Source: Chloroflexota bacterium
GTDB lineage: Bacteria > Chloroflexota > Anaerolineae > Anaerolineales > Villigracilaceae
Length of the DNA: 44,931 bases
Reading direction: 5' to 3'
Assembly (NCBI GenBank): GCA_021787595.1
Contig: JAJYLQ010000027.1
Coordinates: forward strand, 1-44,931
Below the pieces are notes generated by a model. It had not been told where the DNA came from. It worked only from the letters and a program-made list of their open reading frames with translations, and ran no database searches. Positions within the stretch are counted from its first letter, which is position 1. The number at the start of each line of letters is the position of its first letter. Position numbers and translations under genes: made by a program. Below, in pieces: positions 3,107-23,973 of this stretch.

Positions 3107-4792
3107 TTGAGCGAAAAGAAATCGCAAAGCGTTTCTCCCTACGCGGGACGCTGGGTTGCCCGTTTGCAGGGCAGGATCGTTGCTCATGGAGGCACGCCCG
3201 AACAGGCCTTGATTGCCGCGCAGACAAGCCGTCACAAGGAAAAACCCGAAATCATTTACATGCCCATCGAATCTTCCTTCGCTGTTCCGCCATTGCTCGA
3301 ACGTTTGCGCGCGGCTTTGCCCGATCAGGAAATGTACCTGGTGGGCGGCGCGGTACGTGACGCGCTGCTGGGACGCGTCTCGCACGATCTGGATCTGGCA
3401 ATTCCCAAAAATGCGATTGCCGCTGCGAGACGCGCCGCTGCGATCTTGAATGCGGACTTTTACGTGATGGACGAATCCTTCGACATCGCCCGCGTCATCG
3501 TCTCGACCGAAAACGGGTCGCGCGATATTTTGGATTTTGCGGCGTTCCGCGGCCCCGATTTGGATTCCGACTTGCGCGGCCGCGATTTCACCATCAACGC
3601 CATCGCATTCGATCCGCGCCGGCAGGCGATTCTCGATCCGCTCAACGGCGCAGCGGATTTGCGCGCCAAATTAATCCGCGCCTGCTCCGGCACTTCGCTT
3701 CAGGACGATCCGATCCGCATTTTGCGCGCGGTGCGTCTGGCTGCCGCGTTCGAGTTCAAGATCGAAGCCGGGACTCGGTCCGCGATGAAGCACGCCGCCA
3801 ATTTGCTGCCGAACATTTCTCCCGAACGCCAGCGCGACGAATTGTTCAGAATACTCGAAGGCCCGCGTCCAGACGCGTCCATCCGCGCCTTGGAGATGCT
3901 CGGCGTGTTTCCCCATTTGCTTCCCGAATTATCCGCCATGAAGGGCGTTGAACAGTCTGCGCCGCATGTAAGTGATGTTTGGGAACACACGTTGAGTGTC
4001 ATTCAGCATCTTGAGGGAATCCTTGCAGCCCTCACCCCGGCCCCTCTCCCAATTTTGGGAGAGGGGGAAGGGGATGAGGGGAAAAAACAAGATTTGTTCA
4101 CGGGCTTGCTCACTTTGCGCCTCGGACGGTATCGTGAACAATTCGCCGCGCATTTTTCCAAGCCGCTGAATCCGGATCGCTCGATGCGCGCGCTTTTGTT
4201 TTTCGTCGCGCTCTATCACGATGTCTCGAAGCCCGCCACAAAGTCCGTGGACGAAACGGGACGGATCCGTTTCTTCGATCACGATCAATTGGGCGCGAAG
4301 GCCGCGTCCAAACGCGCACACGCATTCAATCTCAGCAACGATGAAATTGACCGGTTGAAAGTCATCATTGAGAACCACATGCGCTTTCACGCTTTTTCGA
4401 GCCGCATGGAGGACGAGAAACAGGAACCGTCGCGCAGAGCCATTTATCGCTTCTTCCGCGATTCAGGCGAAGGCGGCGTGGACCTCATTCTGCTGGGCCT
4501 CGCGGATTTGCGCGGCACGCGCGGCCATACATTGACGCAGGAAACGTGGGCCGCCGCGCTCGACATTGCCCGCCTCCTTTTGGAAAATTATTGGGAGCGC
4601 CCGGAAGAAACTGTCGCGCCGCCGCGTCTTGTAAACGGACTCGATGTGATCAACGAATACAAACTTGAGCAGGGTCCGGTTATCGGTCAAGTGCTTGAAG
4701 CCATCCGTGAAGCGCAGGCAACCGGCAAAGTATCCACGCGCGAAGAAGCGCTCCTATTTGGCCGCGAGTGGTTGAAGGAAAATCCAAAGTGA
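3107..4792 (+). CDS. CCA-adding/poly(A) polymerase-type nucleotidyltransferase with DUF5678-like N-terminus and HD domain
   Basis: From a TTG at 3107, residues ~5-40 (SPYAGRWVARLQGRIVAHGGTP) resemble the small DUF5678 domain. The nucleotidyltransferase head follows: YLVGGAVRDALLG and the two metal-binding Asp of HDLDLAIP, then the RDFTINAIAFD motif and RNA-binding helices (DPIRILRAVRLAA). A C-terminal HD hydrolase region follows, with ALYHDVSKP and FFDHDQLGAKAA. Class II CCA enzymes with an HD domain repair and mature tRNA 3' ends; I infer the same here. An upstream TTG at 3080 overlaps the hpt stop but has no ribosome site; 3107 is preceded by GGTGAGGG. A palindromic repeat (4029-4083) is translated inside the gene, so roughly residues 308-326 are an insertion. 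Confidence 0.88.
   Translation: MSEKKSQSVSPYAGRWVARLQGRIVAHGGTPEQALIAAQTSRHKEKPEIIYMPIESSFAVPPLLERLRAALPDQEMYLVGGAVRDALLGRVSHDLDLAIPKNAIAAARRAAAILNADFYVMDESFDIARVIVSTENGSRDILDFAAFRGPDLDSDLRGRDFTINAIAFDPRRQAILDPLNGAADLRAKLIRACSGTSLQDDPIRILRAVRLAAAFEFKIEAGTRSAMKHAANLLPNISPERQRDELFRILEGPRPDASIRALEMLGVFPHLLPELSAMKGVEQSAPHVSDVWEHTLSVIQHLEGILAALTPAPLPILGEGEGDEGKKQDLFTGLLTLRLGRYREQFAAHFSKPLNPDRSMRALLFFVALYHDVSKPATKSVDETGRIRFFDHDQLGAKAASKRAHAFNLSNDEIDRLKVIIENHMRFHAFSSRMEDEKQEPSRRAIYRFFRDSGEGGVDLILLGLADLRGTRGHTLTQETWAAALDIARLLLENYWERPEETVAPPRLVNGLDVINEYKLEQGPVIGQVLEAIREAQATGKVSTREEALLFGREWLKENPK
4029..4083 (+). repeat. Palindromic repeat of CCCTCACCCC type inside the CCA-type gene
   Basis: CCCTCACCCCGGCCCCTCTCCC and its near inverse (GGGAGAGGGGGAAGGGGATGAGGGG) face each other around AATTTT. 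This is a widespread intergenic repeat type. Here it is in frame and translates to TPAPLPILGEGEGDEG, a stretch foreign to the enzyme family. Confidence 0.85.
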
Positions 4793-13585: not shown

Positions 13586-13612
13586 ATTATCATGCCCGTT
13601 TTGACGTGTCAA
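13586..13612 (-). promoter_or_regulatory. Possible cold shock gene promoter
   Basis: On the minus strand, TTGACA (13612-13607) and GATAAT (13591-13586) with a 15-base spacer, slightly short. It overlaps the end of the PHP gene and leaves an untranslated leader of roughly 75 bases. Confidence 0.5.
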
Positions 13613-14282
13613 GACGGAAATTAATTTTCTTGCGGAGGGTCGCATAACGCGACGTTAAGTGGACCCACGGCGGCGACCAGCGCGTCTGGAATTTTGCATG
13701 GCGGATGACCTTCCGCATCTCATCCGGACCCTCGAACGGCTCCAGCAAAACCAGGCTTCGACCCAGCTCGAAAGCCGCGTGCGCGTCCGAACCGACGGTG
13801 CCCGCGAGATCATGCTTCCTTGCAAATTCCGCCGCACGCCGATTAAAGACCGGGCGCATACAGCGCGAGTTAAAAACTTCAATCGTATCTACGAATGGAA
13901 TGATCTCTAGCAAATCTTCTTCCTTCCATCCGCCGCTGCGCCATTCATCGAACGGATGCGATACGCTGATGAACGCTCCCTGCTCGCGCAAGCGCCGGAT
14001 CGTTTCCTGCGGCGGGAGCATCGCCGGAATCTCCGCCGTCACGAACGCGGCCAGGATTTCGCCGCGCGTGGTCATAACCTCCTCGCCGACGATCACGCGC
14101 TCCGGGTCGAGCTTTTGTGCCGCCCGCGCCCCCGCAATCGTGTTGTGGTCCGTGACGACAACGCGGTCAATTCCCTTGCGCTCGCACGCTGCAACCAAAT
14201 CCGCCGGACGGATAAGGGAGTCCTTGGAAAAAAGGGTGTGACAATGAAACTCAACGGAAAGAAATGGGGTAAATTGTGACAT
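13590..14282 (-). CDS. PHP-domain metal-dependent phosphoesterase
   Basis: Metal-binding motifs of the PHP superfamily appear in order: EFHCHTLFSKD (His13, His15), TDHNT (Asp45, His46), GEEV, SVSHPFDEW and GTVGSDAH. The compact 230-residue form resembles YciV/TrpH-like phosphoesterases, which act on 3',5'-nucleotide phosphates or short RNA; the exact substrate is unknown. The start at 14282 has only eight bases between it and the -35 box of the divergent SPFH operon, so the two genes may influence each other. Confidence 0.88.
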   Translation of the reverse strand: MSQFTPFLSVEFHCHTLFSKDSLIRPADLVAACERKGIDRVVVTDHNTIAGARAAQKLDPERVIVGEEVMTTRGEILAAFVTAEIPAMLPPQETIRRLREQGAFISVSHPFDEWRSGGWKEEDLLEIIPFVDTIEVFNSRCMRPVFNRRAAEFARKHDLAGTVGSDAHAAFELGRSLVLLEPFEGPDEMRKVIRHAKFQTRWSPPWVHLTSRYATLRKKINFRLDTSKRA

Positions 14283-14289
14283 AGGCTAC

Positions 14290-14317
14290 TTGACAAACCA
14301 GATGGGGGGAGTATACT
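14290..14317 (+). promoter_or_regulatory. Strong promoter for the SPFH gene cluster
   Basis: TTGACA (14290-14295) and TATACT (14312-14317) with a 16-base spacer. The expected start is near 14324, giving a 67-base leader. Within the leader ATTCCT (14363-14368) can pair with AGGAAT at the ribosome site and start codon, so translation might be gated. Confidence 0.75.
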
Positions 14318-14390
14318 AAATTCCAGTCAACGAAGCTGGGTTTATTCAGAATTTTGCTCACGATTCCTACGTAAAAATTGGGATAGAGGA

Positions 14391-15788
14391 ATGAGCATAC
14401 TCCAATTGATTGCTTACATCTGGAAGTTGTTTTTTCCGTGGGCTTTAGTAGTTGTTGTGATTGCCTCCACGCTATATGTTTATTTCTCAACTCACGAGAA
14501 TAGCGGCTCTAGGGGAGTGATCACCTATCTGGGTCATTTGATCGTGATAGGCCTGGGCTGGTTATTGGGGAGGTGGATTGGCCTTTTCCTAATCTCTTTA
14601 CCCATCTTGGTCTTTTATTATTATCTGTTGTTTCACCTTGCACTGGTTGTGGTACCGCTTTCTGATCCGGATAATTGGAGGGAATGGATACAGCGTTTTT
14701 TGTTACTCGTCTGGTATCAGTGGGGGGTTCAATACCCGCTCTGGATAGTGAGCGATACTGTGGGGCAGGGTGTTGAGATACGAATTCCAGGAGATCAGTT
14801 CGGATCGTTTGCACCCGGGCTTGTTTGGGCGCGCTCGCATCAAGTAGTTGGCCTGACTACGGGGTTGGCTTTTTCGGGCGTCAGACAGTCAGGGGTGGTA
14901 TTTACAAAAGCGTATGAGCGCCCGCTCGGTGTTGTAGATTTGAGAATCCAATTACGTACCTCCTGGATTGAGGTAGTGTCTAGTGATGGCATTCCCTACA
15001 AAGCCTTGCTGTTTGCGGCTTTCGCGGCCGACAGAGAGAAATGGGACCGGGATCTATATCATCAACTCGTTCGGGAAAATCCATCATTGAGAAACGCAAA
15101 AGAGCCTGACCGCACCAGCGGTACTTACCACTTTTCGCGGGCACGATTACATGCTTTGTTCAGCACAATTGGTATAAGTTCCCCCTCCGATGACTCTTCA
15201 AAGCCCAAAACCATTGAATGGGACGAGAGCGCGCTCTATCAAATCGAAAGGGCAACACGTGAGATTCTCTCTCAACGGCGCCTCGATAACCTATGGCAGC
15301 CTGAAGATGATCGCAACAGTGTCAATGCAATGGATGAAATTGCTGGTGCCATAAGGGATAGATGCTTTCTTCAACTTAAGAAACGGGGAGTTCACTTGTA
15401 TAGCTGTCGGATTGTGAACTTCGAATTTCCAAGAATGGAGGCGCGAGAGGAAAAAGACGATGAAATCAGGCAAAAGCAACTGAAAGCTTGGAGCGCCGAC
15501 TGGCAACGCGAGGCCGAACAGACGCGTGCAGAAGGCAGGGCAGAAGCCGATCTCCTGAAACAGGAGGCGCGCGCCTACGCATACACAAATCTATTGACCG
15601 CCGTGGCTGAAGGCCTGCAAGAGACCCGCCTTCTTGATCCGCATATAGCGCATTACGTTATTGCTGTACGATTTGTCAGCGCAATGGAGGGATTAATCGA
15701 AGAGCAGCCTGAAGGGGAAGAGTCCCGGGAAGCACGCACATCATTGGAGGAGGTAAAGAAAATGATCCCCTGGGCAACACGAGAGTAA
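14391..15788 (+). CDS. Membrane-anchored SPFH/band-7-like protein 1
   Basis: Not a family I can name precisely. Three hydrophobic segments (about 5-32, 44-60, 62-89) anchor the N-terminus. A beta-rich region follows with GVVDLRIQLRTSWIEVVSSDGI, matching the DLRxQ...T.DGI pattern shared with the other three large proteins of this cluster and typical of SPFH (stomatin/prohibitin/flotillin/HflKC) domains. Residues ~375-425 are charged and helical (AEQTRAEGRAEADLLKQEARAYAYT), like SPFH stalks that form the walls of cage assemblies. GC is lower than in the flanking genes. Seven bases separate it from the next gene. Likely role: a membrane scaffold or microdomain organiser (inference). Confidence 0.72.
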   Translation: MSILQLIAYIWKLFFPWALVVVVIASTLYVYFSTHENSGSRGVITYLGHLIVIGLGWLLGRWIGLFLISLPILVFYYYLLFHLALVVVPLSDPDNWREWIQRFLLLVWYQWGVQYPLWIVSDTVGQGVEIRIPGDQFGSFAPGLVWARSHQVVGLTTGLAFSGVRQSGVVFTKAYERPLGVVDLRIQLRTSWIEVVSSDGIPYKALLFAAFAADREKWDRDLYHQLVRENPSLRNAKEPDRTSGTYHFSRARLHALFSTIGISSPSDDSSKPKTIEWDESALYQIERATREILSQRRLDNLWQPEDDRNSVNAMDEIAGAIRDRCFLQLKKRGVHLYSCRIVNFEFPRMEAREEKDDEIRQKQLKAWSADWQREAEQTRAEGRAEADLLKQEARAYAYTNLLTAVAEGLQETRLLDPHIAHYVIAVRFVSAMEGLIEEQPEGEESREARTSLEEVKKMIPWATRE

Positions 15789-15795
15789 GTGCATT

Positions 15796-17142
15796 ATGGC
15801 ACCTCAGGACGCTCGTGAAAATCGAAGTAAAGGGCTGCGCCTGTATTTAGCGATTCGTTCCATGAATCGCGGCCCCAGGCAACTTCTGCTTGTGGGTGTT
15901 CCTTTTCTGTTAATTTTCCTTTGGATAGCCCTTGTCTCTCCTTTCCTGTCTTTCCACTTTGGGTACGTGAAATGGTTTGGGACGACAACCTTCTCTCTTA
16001 CACATCTACCGACCTGGCTGGCAATTTCGCTGCCCGCGATAATACTATTTTTGGCGGGTGTTCACTTTTTGCTCCATACAAGCCAGGCCTTCGTCTGTGG
16101 GCTCTATCATCCCCCCTCCGAAACCGAATCTGAAATCAAAGAAAGGATATGGCACAGGCTTTGGGGTTTACAAGGATTATCCTTCTACAACTATATAGTT
16201 ATAAAAGATACGCAACTGGCACCAAACATTCAATGGAGCACCTGGCTGGGCGGTCCTACCTATCTAATCATTAACGATGGTGCCGCTGTGTACTTGGAGC
16301 GCGGCAATCGTTTCTCGCGTGTAGTTGGCGCTGGATTCCCAGTACCACACCTTAACGCCCGAGAAACCATCAAAGCCGTGGTGGATTTACGACCTCAGAC
16401 AAGGCGTGCCAGTGTAAGCGCATGGACCAACGACGGCATCAAGGTCACCATCAAGGTACAAGTGGAATTTCAAATTGAATCAAATCCTGTTCGAGACTCC
16501 AGCAACTCGAAACTGGTTTATTCCTTCGATCCACAGGCAGTGTGTAAGGCTGTTGAATACACTGCTGTTCGAATGCGAGAAGGGAAGTTGCAAGAGGTAG
16601 ATTGGCGCGAAGGCACCATGGGAAGCGTAACAGGCCTCCTGGCTCATCATATTTCCAGTCACCGCCTAGACGAGTTATTCATCCGCAACCAAGGTGATGG
16701 CCAAATGCTATCTCTTCAAGTGATAAGTACGTTGCTTGAAAAATCAGATAAACGTCTCAGAGAAGCTATTGGAGTTCACGTTACCAGCCTGCAGATTATT
16801 GAAGTTTCGACACCTTCAGAAATACGCCACCAACGATTAAATGTATGGGGTGCCCAAAAAGACAGCCTGATCACACGGATACAAGGTGAAGCTCAGGCAT
16901 ACAAGATTCGCACTATCGAAGAGGCAAGAGCCAAGGCGCAACGCGATTTGATTGTGGCAATTACAAAGAGCCTCGGACGAGTGGATGATCCCTCCCGCTT
17001 GCCCGAACCTCTACTTTTGTCGCTATCCGGAATCCTGGACCAAGGCTTGAAAGATCCCCTCGTCCAAACGTACATGGCCAGAGAAACTCTGGACGCGTTA
17101 GCCAGACTGAAGGATTTGCTCACTACCGATTCACAGGAGTAA
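15796..17142 (+). CDS. Membrane-anchored SPFH/band-7-like protein 2
   Basis: Two membrane segments (about 29-52 and 73-95) precede an SPFH-type region starting GGPTYLIINDGAAVYLERG. It continues VVDLRPQTRRASVSAWTNDGIKVTIKVQVEFQI, which is the clearest band-7 match in the cluster, then YSFDPQAVCKAVEYTA. The C-terminal part (GEAQAYKIRTIEEARAKAQRDLIVAI) is the Ala/Glu-rich helix seen in flotillin and HflK-like proteins. Paired with the preceding gene, it could form a hetero-oligomer as HflK and HflC do. The next gene starts one base after its stop. Same low-GC codon style as gene 1. Confidence 0.78.
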   Translation: MAPQDARENRSKGLRLYLAIRSMNRGPRQLLLVGVPFLLIFLWIALVSPFLSFHFGYVKWFGTTTFSLTHLPTWLAISLPAIILFLAGVHFLLHTSQAFVCGLYHPPSETESEIKERIWHRLWGLQGLSFYNYIVIKDTQLAPNIQWSTWLGGPTYLIINDGAAVYLERGNRFSRVVGAGFPVPHLNARETIKAVVDLRPQTRRASVSAWTNDGIKVTIKVQVEFQIESNPVRDSSNSKLVYSFDPQAVCKAVEYTAVRMREGKLQEVDWREGTMGSVTGLLAHHISSHRLDELFIRNQGDGQMLSLQVISTLLEKSDKRLREAIGVHVTSLQIIEVSTPSEIRHQRLNVWGAQKDSLITRIQGEAQAYKIRTIEEARAKAQRDLIVAITKSLGRVDDPSRLPEPLLLSLSGILDQGLKDPLVQTYMARETLDALARLKDLLTTDSQE

Positions 17143-17143
17143 T

Positions 17144-18640
17144 ATGACCGACGAGATTGTTACTATTTTAAGAGATTACTTATCTTTCGATCTTCAGGAA
17201 AAAAATCCCTCATCCGAAGATGCGCTGCTCAAAAGCTGGATGTTAGAGATGTTGGCTCTGTGTCGGGATGCGGACAGTTTTGAAAAGGCCAAGGCGAAAA
17301 TAGAACCTCGGAGTAACCAATACTCCTCGACGATCGATTTCAACAAAAAAGTGCCATATTCGTCCTTGTTATTATTCTATATCTTTTACAAATGGGGAAA
17401 ATTCCACGAGGCCATAATATTTGCAAAACATGCCAACGAAGAGTTCGAACAACGTGGAATGACGCACAATCAAGCTATTGCTCTTTGGGTCGGTGCATTG
17501 GCATACAAGCAGGAGAAACGCTTCGAAGATGCACAAAAAGATATCAGCGAGGCACTCGGACTGATGGAGAAGAAATTGTCTGATTGCCGAAACTTTACAC
17601 CGATGAAGGTAAGACAAAAGAATTACGAAAATATCTGCGAAATACTGCGTCAAATCAATGATCGCTTGAAGGAGAGAATTCCAAAGACCGTCCCCCCTGG
17701 CGCCTCTGTTCGTACTCCTCCTCCCAGGCCTACGGATGAACAATCAGGTTCCCGTGGAACTTCTACTCCTAATCATCCAGAACCTCCGACAGGACAAACA
17801 GGAGGACCGGGAAATGATGAGGGCATTCCCCTTGTTACATCCCCCACGCCACGAATCGAGGTAAATATTCCAATAGATATTACATTGTCCAATTTAATGA
17901 AATCAGCGATATCTTCAGAAGTGGAGGCTCCCGTCACCCTACGTACAGTGAACTACAACGAAATCGAAGCGCCAATCGATACGAGCGCGATAAATGTGAA
18001 CGATGTCAAGTCCCTCGCTAGCGCAGATGCCGCAAGCCTGAACGTCGCACTTCCGGCAGCAAAGTCCAGTCCACACGACACAGAGCTGTCTATTCAGGAA
18101 GGAGAAATCGTCGAAGAGATATCGCTCCCCTGGCTGGACTTCATTGATGTTGCAGCGCAAGCTGATCCTGACGGCTACCATCTTCGCTTGGATTCTCCCC
18201 AAAAAGTTCCAACTGCGATCAGCCATATCATCATTGAAGATAGAGACTGTACTATCCATGCGCTGAAGAAAACCTCTGCTAGAATTGATCGAATCATCAA
18301 GCTGGTCGCATCAAGGAGATATGCTTGGATCAAGGTGGTACACGACAGCATGAAAAACTTCGACCCGCCAATCGAAGAGGGCGATTACATCCTTTACTAT
18401 GAATGTAATACCCCGCCTCCAGAAGCCAGCATCGTAGTTGTAAGCGAAACTGATGAAACCAAAGAAGAAGAGCGGATATTGGTGAAGCAGTATAGTAAGA
18501 TTGATAACTGCCTATATTCTTACAACAACGAGAAAAAGTATGCCCCCCGTCCGCCATGTGAACATTGCCGGATTGTAGGAATCGTTGTTGCTGTGGCAAA
18601 ACCCAACAACCCAGAGCGAAGGAACCGAATCGGGAGGTAA
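17144..18640 (+). CDS. TPR protein with C-terminal LexA/S24-like protease domain
   Basis: Residues ~70-175 form helical repeats of TPR type (SSLLLFYIFYKWGKFHEAIIFAKHA, AIALWVGALAYKQEKRFEDAQKDI). A Pro/Ser/Thr-rich linker spans ~180-235. Residues ~393-486 resemble the peptidase S24 domain of LexA: VVHDSM with Ser402, PPIEEGDYILYY, then ILVKQ with Lys448 at the spacing of the Ser-Lys dyad, and RIVGIVVAV closing the fold. No helix-turn-helix is present, so it is not a LexA repressor. It lies in an operon with membrane SPFH proteins, overlapping neither but spaced by 1-4 bases. A signal-responsive self-cleaving or regulatory protease role is inferred, not shown. Confidence 0.68.
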   Translation: MTDEIVTILRDYLSFDLQEKNPSSEDALLKSWMLEMLALCRDADSFEKAKAKIEPRSNQYSSTIDFNKKVPYSSLLLFYIFYKWGKFHEAIIFAKHANEEFEQRGMTHNQAIALWVGALAYKQEKRFEDAQKDISEALGLMEKKLSDCRNFTPMKVRQKNYENICEILRQINDRLKERIPKTVPPGASVRTPPPRPTDEQSGSRGTSTPNHPEPPTGQTGGPGNDEGIPLVTSPTPRIEVNIPIDITLSNLMKSAISSEVEAPVTLRTVNYNEIEAPIDTSAINVNDVKSLASADAASLNVALPAAKSSPHDTELSIQEGEIVEEISLPWLDFIDVAAQADPDGYHLRLDSPQKVPTAISHIIIEDRDCTIHALKKTSARIDRIIKLVASRRYAWIKVVHDSMKNFDPPIEEGDYILYYECNTPPPEASIVVVSETDETKEEERILVKQYSKIDNCLYSYNNEKKYAPRPPCEHCRIVGIVVAVAKPNNPERRNRIGR

Positions 18641-18644
18641 AACA

Positions 18645-19283
18645 ATGGTAATGATATTAGAGGCCTTTTCAAAAATGGCAGCAAGTGTTGTCCCGTTTGT
18701 ACCGATGATCTCAGCAATATCGGATATCTTCTTGGCTATTGCCGCAATAGTAGGTATCCAAGGCCTACACCAGTGGCGGCTTCAACTGAAATTTGGAGAT
18801 CAATATAAAACTGCTCACAGCATATGGGGATTGTCCCTTCGCTTCAAAAGGGAATTTGAGTTGATAAGGCATCAAGCGCCCTTGAGCCTTTTAACGGAAG
18901 ATGAGGCAGGAGAATCTGAGTGGATAGCGAACAGCCAGCGCCTAGTGGGTGATTTCTACGAACGCAAGCATCACATAGATATGTTATATGAAATAACCGA
19001 AAAGCTCTACAACGCGAGCATAGAAGTGGAAGGCTACCTAGGCGAAAGAGAGGCTGAAATCACGCTGCCATTTGAGGAGGCATACAAAAAGCTGTTTGAG
19101 GCTTTCGGGGATTACGAAAAACTCATTCATTCTTTGGAATCTCAAACTTGTAATCAAGAAACAATTGAGAAATTTCAAAGAAGCCGCCCTGTCCTATTTC
19201 CCGCCGATGGTGATTTGCTAGAGGCCCAAGTGCGAACCGCCGTCAGAGATACAGAAAAAAGACTCTCCAAGTACCTCAAATAG
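18645..19283 (+). CDS. Small membrane protein of the SPFH cluster, unknown function
   Basis: The ATG at 18645 has GGGAGGT upstream and follows the S24-like gene by four bases; an in-frame codon at 18585 lies inside that gene and is unlikely. Residues ~12-38 (AASVVPFVPMISAISDIFLAIAAIVGI) form a membrane hairpin or segment. The remaining ~170 residues are charged and helical (ITEKLYNASIEVEGYLGEREAEI), predicted cytoplasmic. I recognise no family. Its place suggests an accessory subunit of the cluster. Last gene of the low-GC half. Confidence 0.65.
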   Translation: MVMILEAFSKMAASVVPFVPMISAISDIFLAIAAIVGIQGLHQWRLQLKFGDQYKTAHSIWGLSLRFKREFELIRHQAPLSLLTEDEAGESEWIANSQRLVGDFYERKHHIDMLYEITEKLYNASIEVEGYLGEREAEITLPFEEAYKKLFEAFGDYEKLIHSLESQTCNQETIEKFQRSRPVLFPADGDLLEAQVRTAVRDTEKRLSKYLK

Positions 19284-19530
19284 AGGTCTGTATGAGCTTG
19301 CGGAGTGTATAAGATAAAACGAGGGATCAAGTATCAGCTATCGCCACGGCTCCTGAGAGTTTCTGCGCCCTCAGACTCTCCCACTTTACCTCGCCTAAAA
19401 GTTAGTCGTCGCACGTTCCTCTCTTTCAGAAAGTATTTGATGTGATCTGAACAAGCAAACACGCGGATGCTATCCCACACTCCTAACTTCATCCCCTGAT
19501 TTCCCTGTTTTGTTATAAAATCTTCCAGCA
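19284..19530 (+). other. Spacer between the two halves of the SPFH cluster
   Basis: No ORF of interest and no obvious terminator. CTCCTGAGAGT and ACTCTCCCAC-like segments are weakly complementary. TATAAA at 19514-19519 could be a -10 element giving a nearly leaderless transcript for the next gene, but no -35 box is visible. Confidence 0.35.
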
Positions 19531-21117
19531 ATGGAAGAGATACCGTTTTATCAAAAACCCTGGTTCCGCGGTCTGATTTTGGGATTCCTCCTGCTGGGCA
19601 TGTACGCGTACAGCGTCTGGCAGCGGGGCCTGTGGGCAAATATCCTAGGCATCGCCTTTGACGTGATCGCGCTGGTGCTGCTTTTGCAGGCCGCCGTCTA
19701 TTTCTATGCCCAGTTCATCCTGCCGATTCGGACTCTCGAAGATCGCAGGAGGATCTTTAATCGTCTCTGGCTCCACGCCACGAACGGACACGGACCAGCC
19801 ATCTTCGTCAAGAACGGGCGGCTCGTGGAACGCGAAGGCGAGAGCGAAAAGATCGGGCCGGGCGTTCTGTGGCTGGATACTGCCAGCGCGGTCGTCACCC
19901 GCACGCCGACGGCGTACAAACAGGTGCTTGGCCCCGGCGTCCATTTTATTGACCGGTGGGAACAGATCGCCAGCGTCATCAGCCTGCATGCCCAGTCCCA
20001 GACAATCGGTCCTCACCGCGACGATGCTCCATTTGCGAAGCTGAAAGAAAACGCGAGCGAAGAGGAACGCAAAAGGCACGCCGATGTCCAGGACAGACGC
20101 GAAGCGGTCAGCGCCATCACGCGCGACGGCATCGAGATCATTCCCAACATCAGCGTTACGTTTAAGATTGATGCGGGGCCCGCGTCGCCCAGTGAAGCGG
20201 GATCCCGCTTCGGGTTCGACAAAGAAGCGGTGGAGAGAGCCGCGCGGGGCGAGGGCGTCAATCCCGATTCGATATCCGAGAGCGAACATCACGTCCCGTG
20301 GAATCAACTGCCCGCCATGATCGCGGCGGACTTGTGGAGGGAATATCTCAGCAAGTTCACGTTGAACCAGCTCTTCGAAGCCAGCCTCGACCCTCTGCCC
20401 GAAGTCCCGCAGCCCGAACCGCCTGCCCCGCCGCCGGAACCGCCGCCTCCGCCCGCGCCGACAAAAATCGGACTCTTTGCAAACGTTCTCAAGCGCATCA
20501 ACAATTCGCTGGAGAAGAGCCTGCAAGAGCAGGCTGCCGCCAATGTTGACCTGACCCAATCTGAATCGCGGGTTACAGAACCAGTTTCTGCAAGCAGCCT
20601 GCCTGTGGAATTAAAAAAGCAGACCGCGTTGCAGACGATCATGCAAATGATGCGGGCACGCATGACGCAGGCAGTCGTCCCGGTGTTGGACGAGGTTGGC
20701 CGGCCCGTCGAAGGATTCATTGCCAGCGACGAATTCAAAAAATTGAAGGAACGCGGACTGGCCGTTTCAAGCGTCAGTGTGGGCGCGCTGCGGTTCAATC
20801 CAACCATCGAGGCGCAGATCGTCCAGAACTGGACGACGAACTGGCTGATCAACGCAAAGGCCGACCGCCGCCGCATCGAGCGCCTTGATCTCGTCTACGG
20901 CGAAAGCGGAAGAATAAAGGCGCTTCAAGATCATGCCTTTTTCCTGAGCCAGGCAGTGACGAGGGATAAACCGCGCGATATTTCCTCCGCAGTCAAGACG
21001 CTGCTTCAACGCACGCAGGCGGAGATCAAGACGAACGACGGCCTTCTGCGGCGCGTGACCAATGAAGCCTCGGCGCTGGACGATATCATCAATTGGATGG
21101 AGTCAAAAGAGTTATGA
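19531..21117 (+). CDS. Membrane-anchored SPFH/band-7-like protein 3
   Basis: Two membrane segments (about 12-30 and 37-62) are followed by an SPFH-like region: HGPAIFVKNGRLVEREGE, GPGVLWLDTASAVV, VLGPGVHFI, then ITRDGIEIIPNISVTFKID, which parallels the TNDGIKVTIKV pattern of protein 2. FGFDKEAVERAARGE parallels YSFDPQAVCKAVEYT. A proline tract (~289-310) separates this from a helical C-terminal half. Here VLDEVGRPVEGFIASDEFKKLKERGLAVSSVSVG looks like the end of an SPFH core. GC is high, unlike proteins 1 and 2. The stop overlaps the next start (ATGA). Confidence 0.74.
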   Translation: MEEIPFYQKPWFRGLILGFLLLGMYAYSVWQRGLWANILGIAFDVIALVLLLQAAVYFYAQFILPIRTLEDRRRIFNRLWLHATNGHGPAIFVKNGRLVEREGESEKIGPGVLWLDTASAVVTRTPTAYKQVLGPGVHFIDRWEQIASVISLHAQSQTIGPHRDDAPFAKLKENASEEERKRHADVQDRREAVSAITRDGIEIIPNISVTFKIDAGPASPSEAGSRFGFDKEAVERAARGEGVNPDSISESEHHVPWNQLPAMIAADLWREYLSKFTLNQLFEASLDPLPEVPQPEPPAPPPEPPPPPAPTKIGLFANVLKRINNSLEKSLQEQAAANVDLTQSESRVTEPVSASSLPVELKKQTALQTIMQMMRARMTQAVVPVLDEVGRPVEGFIASDEFKKLKERGLAVSSVSVGALRFNPTIEAQIVQNWTTNWLINAKADRRRIERLDLVYGESGRIKALQDHAFFLSQAVTRDKPRDISSAVKTLLQRTQAEIKTNDGLLRRVTNEASALDDIINWMESKEL

Positions 21118-22913
21118 ACGGGCAGGCGCAGATTCCATCCGCGTGGCAGATCGAGCGGGAAAGGTTCAGGAAGCTGTTCCATGAATGGCTCGAAGCGCGG
21201 TCGAGCAAATTCTTCGACTTGAGCATTCACGGCCCCGCAGATCGCCGGTTCAGGATACTGGCGTTGGGCGCGGGTTTCATCGCTTTTGGATTTATCGTTC
21301 ACATCCTGCTTTATGTGTTCCCTGTTCTCGCACCGCCGCCCGCGGTCAGCCTGCAATCCTTTCTGGCCCCATCCTTTATCATCGTTTTTCAACTGCTCCT
21401 CATTCTGCTCATTCCCGCTTCGATTGCCATCAACATGGCGGGGAATTATCTTGCGGATGTCTTCGAACTCAAGGATGCGCGCAGCGCGTGGAAATTCATC
21501 AGCGAGTTGTCGCTGGGCGGCGCGAACGAAGTGCTTCACATCCGGGATGGCAAGATCGCGGAGGCGAGCCAGGATTCGCCCATCATGCTGATCGGCGGCC
21601 CGGGACGCGTCCTCGTCGAGTTCGACAGCGCGGCCTTGTTCGAAAAAACGGACGGGACGCCGCATGTGATCGGACCCGCGTCCCTCTACGCCGACAAATT
21701 GATTCTGGATGGCTTCGAGCGCCTCCGCGAACCGATCATCAACCTGCGCGACCAGTACATCGGCAATCCTTCCGCCGAGCCGATGACCATCGTCAGCCGC
21801 AGCCTGGACGGAATCCCCGTCAGCGCAATTGATGTCCGCGCGGTTTTCAGCATCCGCCGCGATGTCAAAGATTCAGAACCGACCATCGAATCGCCTTATC
21901 CCTTCGATCCCAGGAGCGTCGAAGATTTGATCTATCGGCAGGCGGTTCCTGTCCTGATCGAAGGCCCTCACCCATCCGGGCTTCCGTCTCATTGGACGAA
22001 TGCCATGCAGGGCCTGGTGCGCGGCGCGATCAGCGAATTCATGAGTCAGCATAAACTGGCCGAATATCTTTCGAGCATCGGCAAGCCGGAGATAGAGGCC
22101 TCGGAACATCAGGAAGACGCGATCCTGCGCGAGACTCTTCAATACTCCAGCGAGCCGCCTTCCGACACACCGTCATCGGCGCAGCCGCCCAGGTTCCACC
22201 CGCGCACGGAATTGAGCGAACTTTTCAGGCGATACACCGCGGGCTTCTCGAGACGGGCGCGGGAACGCGGCGTGGAACTGCATTGGATCGGACCCGGTAC
22301 GTGGAAGATTCCCGACCAGATCGCGAACGATGCCATCAGCAATCGCCACCTGGAAGCCTGGCGGCTCAACCGCGAGAACATGGCGCGTTCCGATCCGAGC
22401 GCGTTCGAACAGGTCAAGGACGAATCCTATCTCAACGAAAAGCTCCGGCTGATTCAAAATGTCCCGTTTGCGGCGCATCAAAAGAATCAGGAAATGTATT
22501 CGGAAAAGAAAAAACGGGTCGAGGCGCTTTTGCAATCCTACCTGGAACAGATGGGCGACGCGCTCGATGTTTATTACAAGAATCAGGCCCGCTCCGCGGA
22601 AGTGGATCAGATCGAAGAGGCGGTCCTTGCAATCGAGCAACTGCTGAACATTTCCGGCGGGTCGCACACCGTTGGCGGGGCCAGCTTGAGCCGCGTCAGA
22701 CCGAGGCCGTTCTCGCACAACGACGAAAGCGTGCCTCCCGCGCCGTCCTCCGAGGCCGAGGCGGAACAATACCGCATCCTGCTGACAAAGCTCGACGGCA
22801 ACTACAAATTGATCGAGCGCATGCTCGCGAGCGAAGCGGGCCGCCATCCCGGCCTGCCGCGCATCGAGTTGATCGAACGCATCAACACCCGCATGGAACG
22901 ATATGGAAGATAG
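21114..22913 (+). CDS. Membrane-anchored SPFH/band-7-like protein 4
   Basis: Begins at 21114 in an ATGA overlap with protein 3, so the two are coupled and probably co-assemble. Two membrane segments (about 47-70 and 84-108). The region SPIMLIGGPGRVLVEFDSA, EPIINLRDQYI, VSRSLDGIPVSAIDVRAVFSI and YPFDPRSVEDLIYRQ matches the shared pattern of the four paralogues step by step. A long helical tail follows (SYLEQMGDALDVYYKNQARSAEV), ending in a charged domain. 599 residues, the largest of the four. No enzyme motif seen. A role as half of a hetero-oligomeric membrane cage is inferred from the pairing. Confidence 0.74.
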   Translation: MNGQAQIPSAWQIERERFRKLFHEWLEARSSKFFDLSIHGPADRRFRILALGAGFIAFGFIVHILLYVFPVLAPPPAVSLQSFLAPSFIIVFQLLLILLIPASIAINMAGNYLADVFELKDARSAWKFISELSLGGANEVLHIRDGKIAEASQDSPIMLIGGPGRVLVEFDSAALFEKTDGTPHVIGPASLYADKLILDGFERLREPIINLRDQYIGNPSAEPMTIVSRSLDGIPVSAIDVRAVFSIRRDVKDSEPTIESPYPFDPRSVEDLIYRQAVPVLIEGPHPSGLPSHWTNAMQGLVRGAISEFMSQHKLAEYLSSIGKPEIEASEHQEDAILRETLQYSSEPPSDTPSSAQPPRFHPRTELSELFRRYTAGFSRRARERGVELHWIGPGTWKIPDQIANDAISNRHLEAWRLNRENMARSDPSAFEQVKDESYLNEKLRLIQNVPFAAHQKNQEMYSEKKKRVEALLQSYLEQMGDALDVYYKNQARSAEVDQIEEAVLAIEQLLNISGGSHTVGGASLSRVRPRPFSHNDESVPPAPSSEAEAEQYRILLTKLDGNYKLIERMLASEAGRHPGLPRIELIERINTRMERYGR

Positions 22914-23043: not shown

Positions 23044-23973
23044 ATGCAGCCGAACTCTTTTTTCTCTCTCTCCTCCGAAATCAACCGCGCCTTGCAAACA
23101 GGCCTGCCCATCGTGGCGCTCGAATCCACCGTCATCACACACGGACTTCCGCAGCCGCAGAACATCCAATTGGCGCGGGATATGGAAGCGACGATCAAGC
23201 GCGAAGGCGCGACGCCTGCGACGATTGCCCTGCTCGACGGAAAAATCCGCATCGGTCTCTCGGACGAGGAACTGGCGCGGCTTGCTGGAGCCAAATCCGC
23301 ACTGAAAGTGAGTCACCGCGACTTCGCGACGGCCATCGTCAAAAAAGCCAGCGGCGGCACAACTGTTGCCGGGACAATGTTTGTTGCAAATAGCGCTGGC
23401 ATCAAAGTCTTTGCGACCGGCGGCATCGGCGGAGTCCACAAGGAAAGTTCATTCGACATTTCGACGGACTTGCGCGCGCTGGCAGAGACGCCCATGATCG
23501 TTGTGTGCGCGGGCGCCAAGGCCATTTTGGATTTGCCTGCCACGCTGGAATATCTTGAAACGATGGGCGTGCCGGTGGTTGGTTATCAAACAAATACCTT
23601 TCCGGAATTCTATTCGCGGGATGGGAATCTAAACGTCAGCGTGCGATTGGATTCGCCAAAAGATGTCGCGGACTTCGCACAGGCGCATTGGTCGCTGGGA
23701 ATGCGGAGCGCGGTGCTCGTGGCGAATCCGGTTCCCGAAACGGATGCCATTCCAAAGTCCGAGATGGAACCGATCATTGGCAAAGCGTCGAAAGAAGCGC
23801 AAGAGAAAAAGATCCACGGCCAAGCATTGACGCCATTCCTGTTAAGCCGCATCAGCGAATTGACGAATGAAAAATCCATGCGCGCAAACCTGGCGTTGTT
23901 GTTGAACAACGCGCAACTCGCCGCGCAGATTTCAAAGGCCCTCGTTGTGAACCAGAAGCGAAGGGAGATTTGA
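23044..23973 (+). CDS. psuG: Pseudouridine-5'-phosphate glycosidase
   Basis: Cleaves the C-C glycosidic bond of pseudouridine 5'-phosphate to uracil and ribose 5-phosphate. Signature stretches: IVALESTVITHGLPQPQN, KVSHRDFATAI, FATGGIGGVHKESSFDISTDL with the metal/phosphate site, VVCAGAKAILDLPATLEYLET (catalytic Lys) and VGYQTNTFPEFYSRDG. Length 309 is normal. The usual kinase partner psuK is not adjacent, so pseudouridine phosphorylation must be encoded elsewhere or the substrate comes from RNA breakdown directly. Confidence 0.93.
   Translation: MQPNSFFSLSSEINRALQTGLPIVALESTVITHGLPQPQNIQLARDMEATIKREGATPATIALLDGKIRIGLSDEELARLAGAKSALKVSHRDFATAIVKKASGGTTVAGTMFVANSAGIKVFATGGIGGVHKESSFDISTDLRALAETPMIVVCAGAKAILDLPATLEYLETMGVPVVGYQTNTFPEFYSRDGNLNVSVRLDSPKDVADFAQAHWSLGMRSAVLVANPVPETDAIPKSEMEPIIGKASKEAQEKKIHGQALTPFLLSRISELTNEKSMRANLALLLNNAQLAAQISKALVVNQKRREI

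Follow-up and report, generated by a model that had tools for sequence, protein, structure and literature searches.

Paired SPFH membrane proteins and a LexA-like S24 protein in Anaerolineales: a candidate proteolytic switch at the membrane

We analysed a stretch of 44,931 nucleotides (the window) from contig JAJYLQ010000027.1 of a Chloroflexota bacterium of the order Anaerolineales (assembly GCA_021787595.1, 4.08 Mb in 63 contigs). Six genes on the + strand of this window, named A, B, X, M, C and D, lie between a PHP-domain gene on the − strand and psuG on the + strand. A, B, C and D are all SPFH (Band_7) proteins and form two paralogous pairs, A-B and C-D, and X carries a LexA-like S24 domain. 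We propose that A-B-X is an SPFH platform with a LexA-like, self-cleaving proteolytic switch at the membrane, a reading to which we give an even chance. We put it forward because of the SPFH identity of the proteins, their pairing, the catalytic residues of X, the coupling of SPFH and S24 genes, which includes a gene fusion, and the difference of the cassette between close relatives.

Four SPFH proteins in two pairs

The Pfam Band_7 model recognises B (E=2.6e-5) and C (E=1.3e-7) above its cut-off, A stays under the cut-off (E=0.019) and the window's D has no match. Eleven of the 15 members of the A alignment match Band_7 at E<=0.01 (best 4e-10), the window's A not being among them, and none of the 23 members of the D alignment does. 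Comparison of profile hidden Markov models (HMMs) joins all four proteins with E-values from 4.6e-29 to 5.2e-11 (A with B 4.6e-29, A with C 1.7e-26, B with D 2.1e-22, B with C 2.4e-22, A with D 8.4e-11, C with D 5.2e-11). A profile search of PDB sequences leads from B to stomatin (1.4e-4) and HflC (0.0034) and from C weakly to HflC (0.09), and gave nothing relevant with A and D.

Predicted structures agree with the profiles. The AlphaFold2 model of D has a predicted local distance difference test (pLDDT) score of 81.8 from 60 sequences, and all 29 of its Foldseek matches at E<=0.001 are erlin, HflK/C, stomatin, prohibitin, QmcA, flotillin or vault chains, with erlins at the top. The model of A is weaker (pLDDT 66.7, six sequences) and matches HflK/C, stomatin, prohibitins, flotillin, QmcA and vault protein. 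Superposed with VIA-align on the SPFH domain of stomatin, the A model gives Z 13.9 with a root-mean-square deviation of 1.7 over 108 residues and the D model Z 11.5 with 2.2 Å over 109 residues, where only rows above the background set by ribosomal proteins (up to Z 7.5 for D and 9.3 for A) were used. On its profile and model matches D is therefore an SPFH protein that the Pfam model misses. The prediction of four large SPFH-type membrane proteins is thus borne out, for B and C by Pfam and for A and D by profile comparison and predicted structure.

A hydropathy scan finds N-terminal hydrophobic stretches in A, B, C, D and M and none in X. The two to three N-terminal membrane segments expected for each large protein are seen in A, B and D; C shows a single merged stretch. 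Long helices follow the SPFH part in the models of A (residues 353-415) and D (408-517) and form helical C-terminal tails.

Our survey scanned the window and 140 fetched loci (L numbers; G numbers denote genomes), with several genomes present twice. It revealed a third pair, E-F, followed by an X-like gene (L101/L165, L148, L162, L176, L209, L212, L213 and L204) and also present in L107, where a contig end interrupts it. A single branch (99/96) of an unrooted tree built from 60 proteins splits all 30 first-position proteins (A, C, E) from all 30 second-position proteins (B, D, F). Within the halves, C groups with eight E rows (99/95) and D with the eight matching F rows (99/92), and A and B stand apart. 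The rows of L242, L249 and L251, labelled E and F, fall outside the E and F groups, and a number of them are long. The L251 first gene groups with A (100/98), and the placement of the others is unsettled. This division between first and second genes indicates that the SPFH pair duplicated as a unit.

The pairs share a recurring chromosomal slot with the order PHP (−), SPFH genes, PsuG (+). Among 108 loci with a D gene, some genomes being counted twice, PsuG lies on the same strand in 102 and a PHP gene is present in 61, many loci ending early at contig edges. The majority of slot loci carry C-D alone, and A-B is present in 22 loci from 20 genomes. The full order A-B-X-C-D occurs in seven genomes (the window, L069/L103, L075/L149, L151, L164, L166 and L199). 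PsuG follows D in each of the seven, and in six of them PHP precedes A. Neither outcome that the original prediction had named as speaking against it, a lack of SPFH matches in three of the four proteins or homologues never found together, was observed, and the recurring order, unrecognised at the outset, carries no name in the libraries used.

What needs correction is the notion of a single machine of four parts. A hand-made table of 61 family genomes holds A-B in 19 and C-D in 34, with both in five compared to 10.6 expected (Fisher P=0.0025, ignoring kinship). We see two modules, A-B-X and C-D, and do not favour one four-part complex, since the modules mostly occur apart. No S24-bearing X lies within 3 kb downstream of D in any of the 108 D loci, and C-D is a sister pair without a downstream protease gene, probably a housekeeping copy.

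The family appears confined to its class in the material searched. Relatives of C, in the 80 of 121 loci that were kept, carry titles of Chloroflexi/Chloroflexota, Anaerolineae, Anaerolineales or genera of the phylum, including Longilinea arvoryzae KOME-1. One draw of 301 phylum genomes gave no members outside the class among the matches of profiles A4 (16 genomes, E<=1e-10), A2 (15 genomes, E<=1e-10) and A9 (23 genomes, E<=1e-15).

The S24 protein and its coupling to SPFH genes

The window's X matches Pfam S24 at E=1.2e-4, with 22.2 bits against a cut-off of 23.3, and its relative in L165 matches at 3.5e-15 with 56.2 bits. A TPR match is at chance level in the window's X (0.32) and clear in L249 (2.4e-7), and no helix-turn-helix match of the kind that the N-terminal winged-helix DNA-binding domain of LexA would give was found in the window's X. 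Of the TPR-linker-S24 protein that had been placed between the pairs, the S24 part is present with its Ser and Lys and the TPR signs are weak.

The Ala-Gly site, the Ser and the Lys of the family line up with those of two LexA-like proteins of the same class (L238 and L239, named from sequence). Among the 32 S24-bearing proteins of 35 aligned, 31 retain the P1 Ala, 31 the Ser, 31 the Lys and 25 a P1' Gly; these counts omit L176, L209 and L204 (no S24 domain), L068 (a different TPR protein) and L064 (a shortened X). The sole exception, L066, has lost Ala, Ser and Lys together. Retention of the catalytic residues along with the substrate residue is what self-cleavage would be expected to leave behind.

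S24 and SPFH genes also travel together. An S24-bearing X lies downstream of B in 13 of the 17 A-B genomes not interrupted by a contig end, after leaving out L067, L070 and L077 as contig-cut. When X alone was used for a profile search of 298 genomes of the class, 57 genomes matched, most over the S24 part only and probably LexA. About 39 of the 57 hold such S24-only matches, mostly short frames, which were taken as LexA and left out, a 362-residue frame in G413 included. We fetched the 13 loci (12 genomes) with longer or doubtful matches, and an SPFH gene lies near X in nine of them (L241-L249, two from one genome). In a further locus, L251 (genome G588), SPFH (Band_7 1e-14) and S24 (1.6e-8) are fused in one protein of 635 residues that holds A-A-G, GDSM and LKR. 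Because the HMMs were built from family members, matches to those members arise by construction; the SPFH matches in L241-L251 are independent. Two loci found through SPFH, L202 and L203, likewise have an S24 protein after the pair (8.5e-9 in L202; by alignment in L203). No SPFH gene stands beside the match in L250 (an S24-like protein of 859 residues), L252 or L253, the last of which may be the remaining half of the interrupted contig of L067.

Some SPFH proteins carry additional N-terminal parts. Beta-propeller parts precede the transmembrane stretch and SPFH domain in L209:9352-12090 and L210:2135-6682 (LVIVD repeats) and in L248:1182-4751 (WD40-like by eye). The LVIVD repeats of L209 and L210 sit between an N-terminal transmembrane stretch and the one preceding SPFH, and L248 looks alike by eye. 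Such proteins are possible sensors of the outside.

We propose the following steps for A-B-X. A and B would co-assemble into a ring or dome with their SPFH domains on the cytoplasmic face, as in SPFH structures. We place the SPFH side in the cytoplasm because X is soluble, the S24 domain of the fusion is C-terminal and the beta-propellers lie between two transmembrane stretches (in L209 and L210, and by eye in L248). Soluble X would dock on the platform through its TPR-like helices and be held uncut until the platform changes state, the presumed trigger. The Ser-Lys protease of S24 would then cut its own linker after the conserved Ala, and the two halves of X would part and pass on the signal, perhaps with M or an NTPase as partners.

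Several observations weigh against this proposal. Four A-B loci lack a full X (L064 has a shortened X without S24, L068 a TPR protein without S24, and in L072 and L078 no X was found), and three E-F-type X proteins (L176, L209, L204) are without an S24 domain, so that the pair can stand without the protease. The SPFH-S24 fusion is seen in one genome only, with 6% contamination. X and SPFH lie on opposite strands in L246 and 1.2 kb apart in L247, and L066 has an ATPase gene on the other strand between B and X. Finally, in the window's own X the residue that follows the conserved Ala is Asp and not Gly, and its predicted cleavage may therefore be poor.

If the proposal holds, a LexA-type self-cutting partner gives SPFH membrane scaffolds a one-way switch, and the S24 fold moves from repression in DNA damage to signalling at the membrane. 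Given the fusion gene, the paired trees and the loss of the cleavage site together with the catalytic residues, two or three proteins would suffice to test the link directly.

Gene layout, cassette turnover and alternative explanations

The features of the locus are collected in Table 1. We favour the ATG at 21114 as the start of D because that Met is nearly invariant among D proteins. Gaps are short between A and B (7 bases), B and X (1) and X and M (4), the end of C overlaps the start of D, and 247 bases separate M from C, so that the spacing makes A-B-X-M and C-D likely to be two operons. The promoter match before A is only suggestive, as the region holds 10 promoter-like sites compared to a mean of 7.2 in shuffles.

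Table 1. Features of the locus in window coordinates
Feature	Position	Strand	Evidence or remark
PHP-domain gene, upstream flank of slot	13590..14282	-	Pfam PHP_C 5e-12, PHP 1.4e-7
Sigma-70-like promoter match before A	14290..14317	+	TTGACA-16-TATACT, 11/12
A, first SPFH protein of pair 1, 465 aa	14391..15788	+	Band_7 in 11/15 alignment members; model matches SPFH structures
B, second SPFH protein of pair 1, 448 aa	15796..17142	+	Band_7 2.6e-5; profile matches stomatin, HflC
X, TPR-like N-terminus, long linker, LexA-like S24 domain, 498 aa, no transmembrane stretch	17144..18640	+	
X Ala340-Asp341, aligned to Ala-Gly of LexA-like proteins	18161..18166	+	P1 Ala kept, P1' = Asp
X Ser402, aligned to Ser of G-x-S-M motif	18347..18349	+	
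X Lys448, aligned to Lys of dyad	18485..18487	+	
M, 212 aa, N-terminal transmembrane stretch, then hydrophilic	18645..19283	+	Place not conserved
C, first SPFH protein of pair 2, 528 aa	19531..21117	+	Band_7 1.3e-7; profile A~C 1.7e-26
D, second SPFH protein of pair 2, 599 aa from ATG 21114	21114..22913	+	Profile B~D 2.1e-22; model
psuG, pseudouridine-5'-phosphate glycosidase, downstream flank	23044..23973	+	Pfam Indigoidine_A 1.7e-121

Relatives in other genomes led us to reject chance open frames as an explanation of A, B, X, C and D; M has one distant match. The small membrane protein expected in the cluster is present as M, with its transmembrane stretch, and is not conserved there: of 101 relatives just 2 yielded it, namely the window and that distant match on another contig, and its longer frame has no Pfam match. 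Small proteins with an N-terminal transmembrane stretch and a hydrophilic rest stand at variable places beside SPFH modules (window 18645-19283, L148:7206-7670) and are possible effectors. In the gap between PHP and C of L159 (6186-7490) lies a single Band_7 protein (3.9e-26, with a weak winged-helix match), with like open reading frames (ORFs) in L181 and L207; this is a different SPFH type in the same slot. Elsewhere in the window, a stretch of about 55-60 bases at 4027-4085 has matches at several sites of a congeneric genome (L084), in either orientation, and is perhaps a dispersed palindromic repeat.

Between the window and the congeneric genome G004 the flanks are 83-92% identical in DNA and C-D 89.6%, and blastn (E<=1e-5) finds no match over 14299-19503. 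Protein identities are 38% for A, 39% for B and 35% for X, compared to 80% for PHP, 89% for C, 92% for D and 95% for PsuG. The window's A-B is closer to a copy in G005 (about 65% DNA identity; 59% protein identity for A and B, 28% for X). That copy is displaced from the slot: HsdM-HsdS-HsdR are about 1 kb away and a TIR fragment lies in the interval, the type I restriction genes of L063 standing upstream of A-B-X. In L242, from another family, SPFH-SPFH-X has a type I restriction set immediately before it. In L071, A-B-X is framed by a DDE transposase fragment and a gene with transposase-type helix-turn-helix domains.

NTPase genes adjoin other variant loci. A KAP NTPase lies upstream of E in L165, L162 and L212, and PADLOC reports PDC-S20, QatA and PifA for L165 and L162. 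L202 has a NACHT-HEAT protein after X and L203 has a similar gene, AAA proteins resembling IetA stand beside L064 and L204, and an ORC-CDC6-like ATPase is present in L066 with a counterpart in L072. In L064:10384-15015 and L204:1110-5194, from two distant lineages, a protein with two AAA stretches and a partner of 460-503 residues adjoin SPFH-SPFH-X, and in L064 a radical-SAM gene accompanies them. On the survey of neighbourhoods proposed at the outset, gene order is conserved in the seven genomes, and defence-type genes stand beside some variant loci.

These variable neighbours are leads, not proof, pointing to a role in conflict. One explanation, which we hold tentatively and think rather improbable, is an anti-phage or conflict system in which the SPFH pair would sense an attack on the membrane, X would serve as the protease switch and the effector would be a variable NTPase or membrane protein. 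The patchy presence of A-B-X, its complete difference between the window and G004, and the KAP, NACHT, IetA-like AAA, type I restriction, TIR-fragment and transposase-type neighbours at variant loci are consistent with it. However, PADLOC gives no usable match for the six window proteins (weak for A, E 0.049, and D, E 0.036; none for B, X, M and C), the module sits between PHP and psuG with no visible defence island, and C-D is present in more than half of the family genomes with steady neighbours. The NTPase partners occur in a minority of loci and belong to differing families, and the difference between the window and G004 could stem from the loss of one of two older cassettes. Spread on plasmids was rejected: among 72,556 plasmid records tblastn found nothing that matches M, the SPFH-S24 fusion or B. 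For the X of L165 there were 49 matching records, not one of them across 80% of the query, and the best 20 cover 36-42% (the S24 part) and are mostly annotated as LexA. A defence role thus stays plausible and unproven. A fuller scenario, which we regard as unlikely, would have SPFH pairs, some with beta-propeller ectodomains, act as an outside-in alarm that triggers TPR-LexA-type self-cleavage and releases a KAP, NACHT, AAA or M effector against phage or rivals, the cassette diversifying under conflict.

Alternatively the pairs may serve housekeeping quality control of the membrane in the manner of HflKC, prohibitins or QmcA, with X regulating turnover and no role in conflict, which we likewise consider doubtful. 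S24 proteases of known function act mainly on themselves and not on bulk substrates, which argues against this explanation. So does the patchiness of A-B-X (A-B in fewer than a third of the family genomes) and its complete difference between close relatives, where a core factor should be steady. C-D, on the other hand, is common and syntenic, and SPFH proteins with protease partners are well established (SPFH1b/SPFH5-NfeD and HflKC-FtsH; PMC2636767, PMC13086221).

That the pairs belong to the catabolism of pseudouridine or nucleosides is highly improbable: the same-strand PsuG, 27 clustered ORFs from the gaps next to PsuG (some genomes twice; the scanned representative is a PfkB kinase, 2.8e-54, hence psuK-like) and a psuG-like gene, by sequence, after X in another family of the class (L243, L247, L249), from which the link of X and psuG seems old, speak for it, but the displaced copies L063, L064, L071 and L242 show no PsuG in the fetched stretch, we know of no part for SPFH or S24 proteins in the pseudouridine pathway, and the link may merely reflect an old, stable chromosomal site.

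Comparison with known systems

Among the literature matches listed, none pairs SPFH with an S24 or LexA-like protease, a scope that does not extend to subscription papers. In its covered part PMC6052134 shares the terms SPFH, LexA and stomatin but concerns a plant flotillin, and in that of PMC7159879 SPFH appears only in the reference list.

The two adjacent paralogous proteins recall the subgroups SPFH11a and SPFH11b, which are described as always adjacent in one operon and are thought to be a gene duplication (PMC2636767). The visible part of the table in that paper counts four SPFH11 in Chloroflexi and one in Acidobacteria. Compared by description only, these subgroups may be relatives of our pairs; however, SPFH11b is described as having no coiled coil, the excerpt names neither an S24 nor a TPR neighbour, and profile A9 found no member outside the class in the 301 phylum genomes (E<=1e-15).

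HflK-HflC with FtsH is alike in having two paralogous SPFH proteins in one operon and a link to a protease, and HflK/C is among our structure matches. It differs in that the adjoining gene here is S24 and not an AAA metalloprotease. We rejected A to D as HflK/HflC orthologues: B scores 17.8 bits against TIGR01933, with a cut-off of 159.4, and A, C and D have no such match. M scores 12 bits against TIGR01932, with a cut-off of 134.4.

KAP NTPase systems (QatA, PifA) and NACHT/STAND systems resemble the variant loci in that such NTPases lie in the gene row of SPFH-SPFH-X (L165, L162, L212 and L202, with the like gene in L203). Unlike them, the window shows no such gene between PHP and psuG, and its SPFH proteins and X match none of their models.

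Among S24 proteins of the LexA and IrvR type, the LexA-like L238 and L239 align with X in the Ser-Lys dyad, the G-x-S-M motif and the region of the Ala-Gly site. X differs in having TPR-like helices instead of a DNA-binding domain, in sitting with SPFH pairs and in the Ala-Asp of the window copy. IrvR is a LexA-like protein reported as an exception to the RecA rule (PMC7101444, in excerpt).

Operons of SPFH proteins and proteases are an old theme (PMC2636767, as excerpted). SPFH1b or SPFH5 with ClpP-type NfeD (PH1511-PH1510, YqfA-YqeZ) likewise joins an SPFH membrane protein and a serine protease in one operon, and PH1510 cleaves the C-terminus of PH1511 (PMC13086221; the excerpt of PMC2636767 swaps these two names). 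From the covered descriptions, one SPFH protein stands there with a membrane ClpP-like NfeD, whereas here two paralogous SPFH proteins stand with a soluble LexA-type S24, and no NfeD match was found in the cluster (by Pfam, for X and M). An SPFH protein with a protease is thus a known theme, to which the LexA-type S24 adds a new type of protease.

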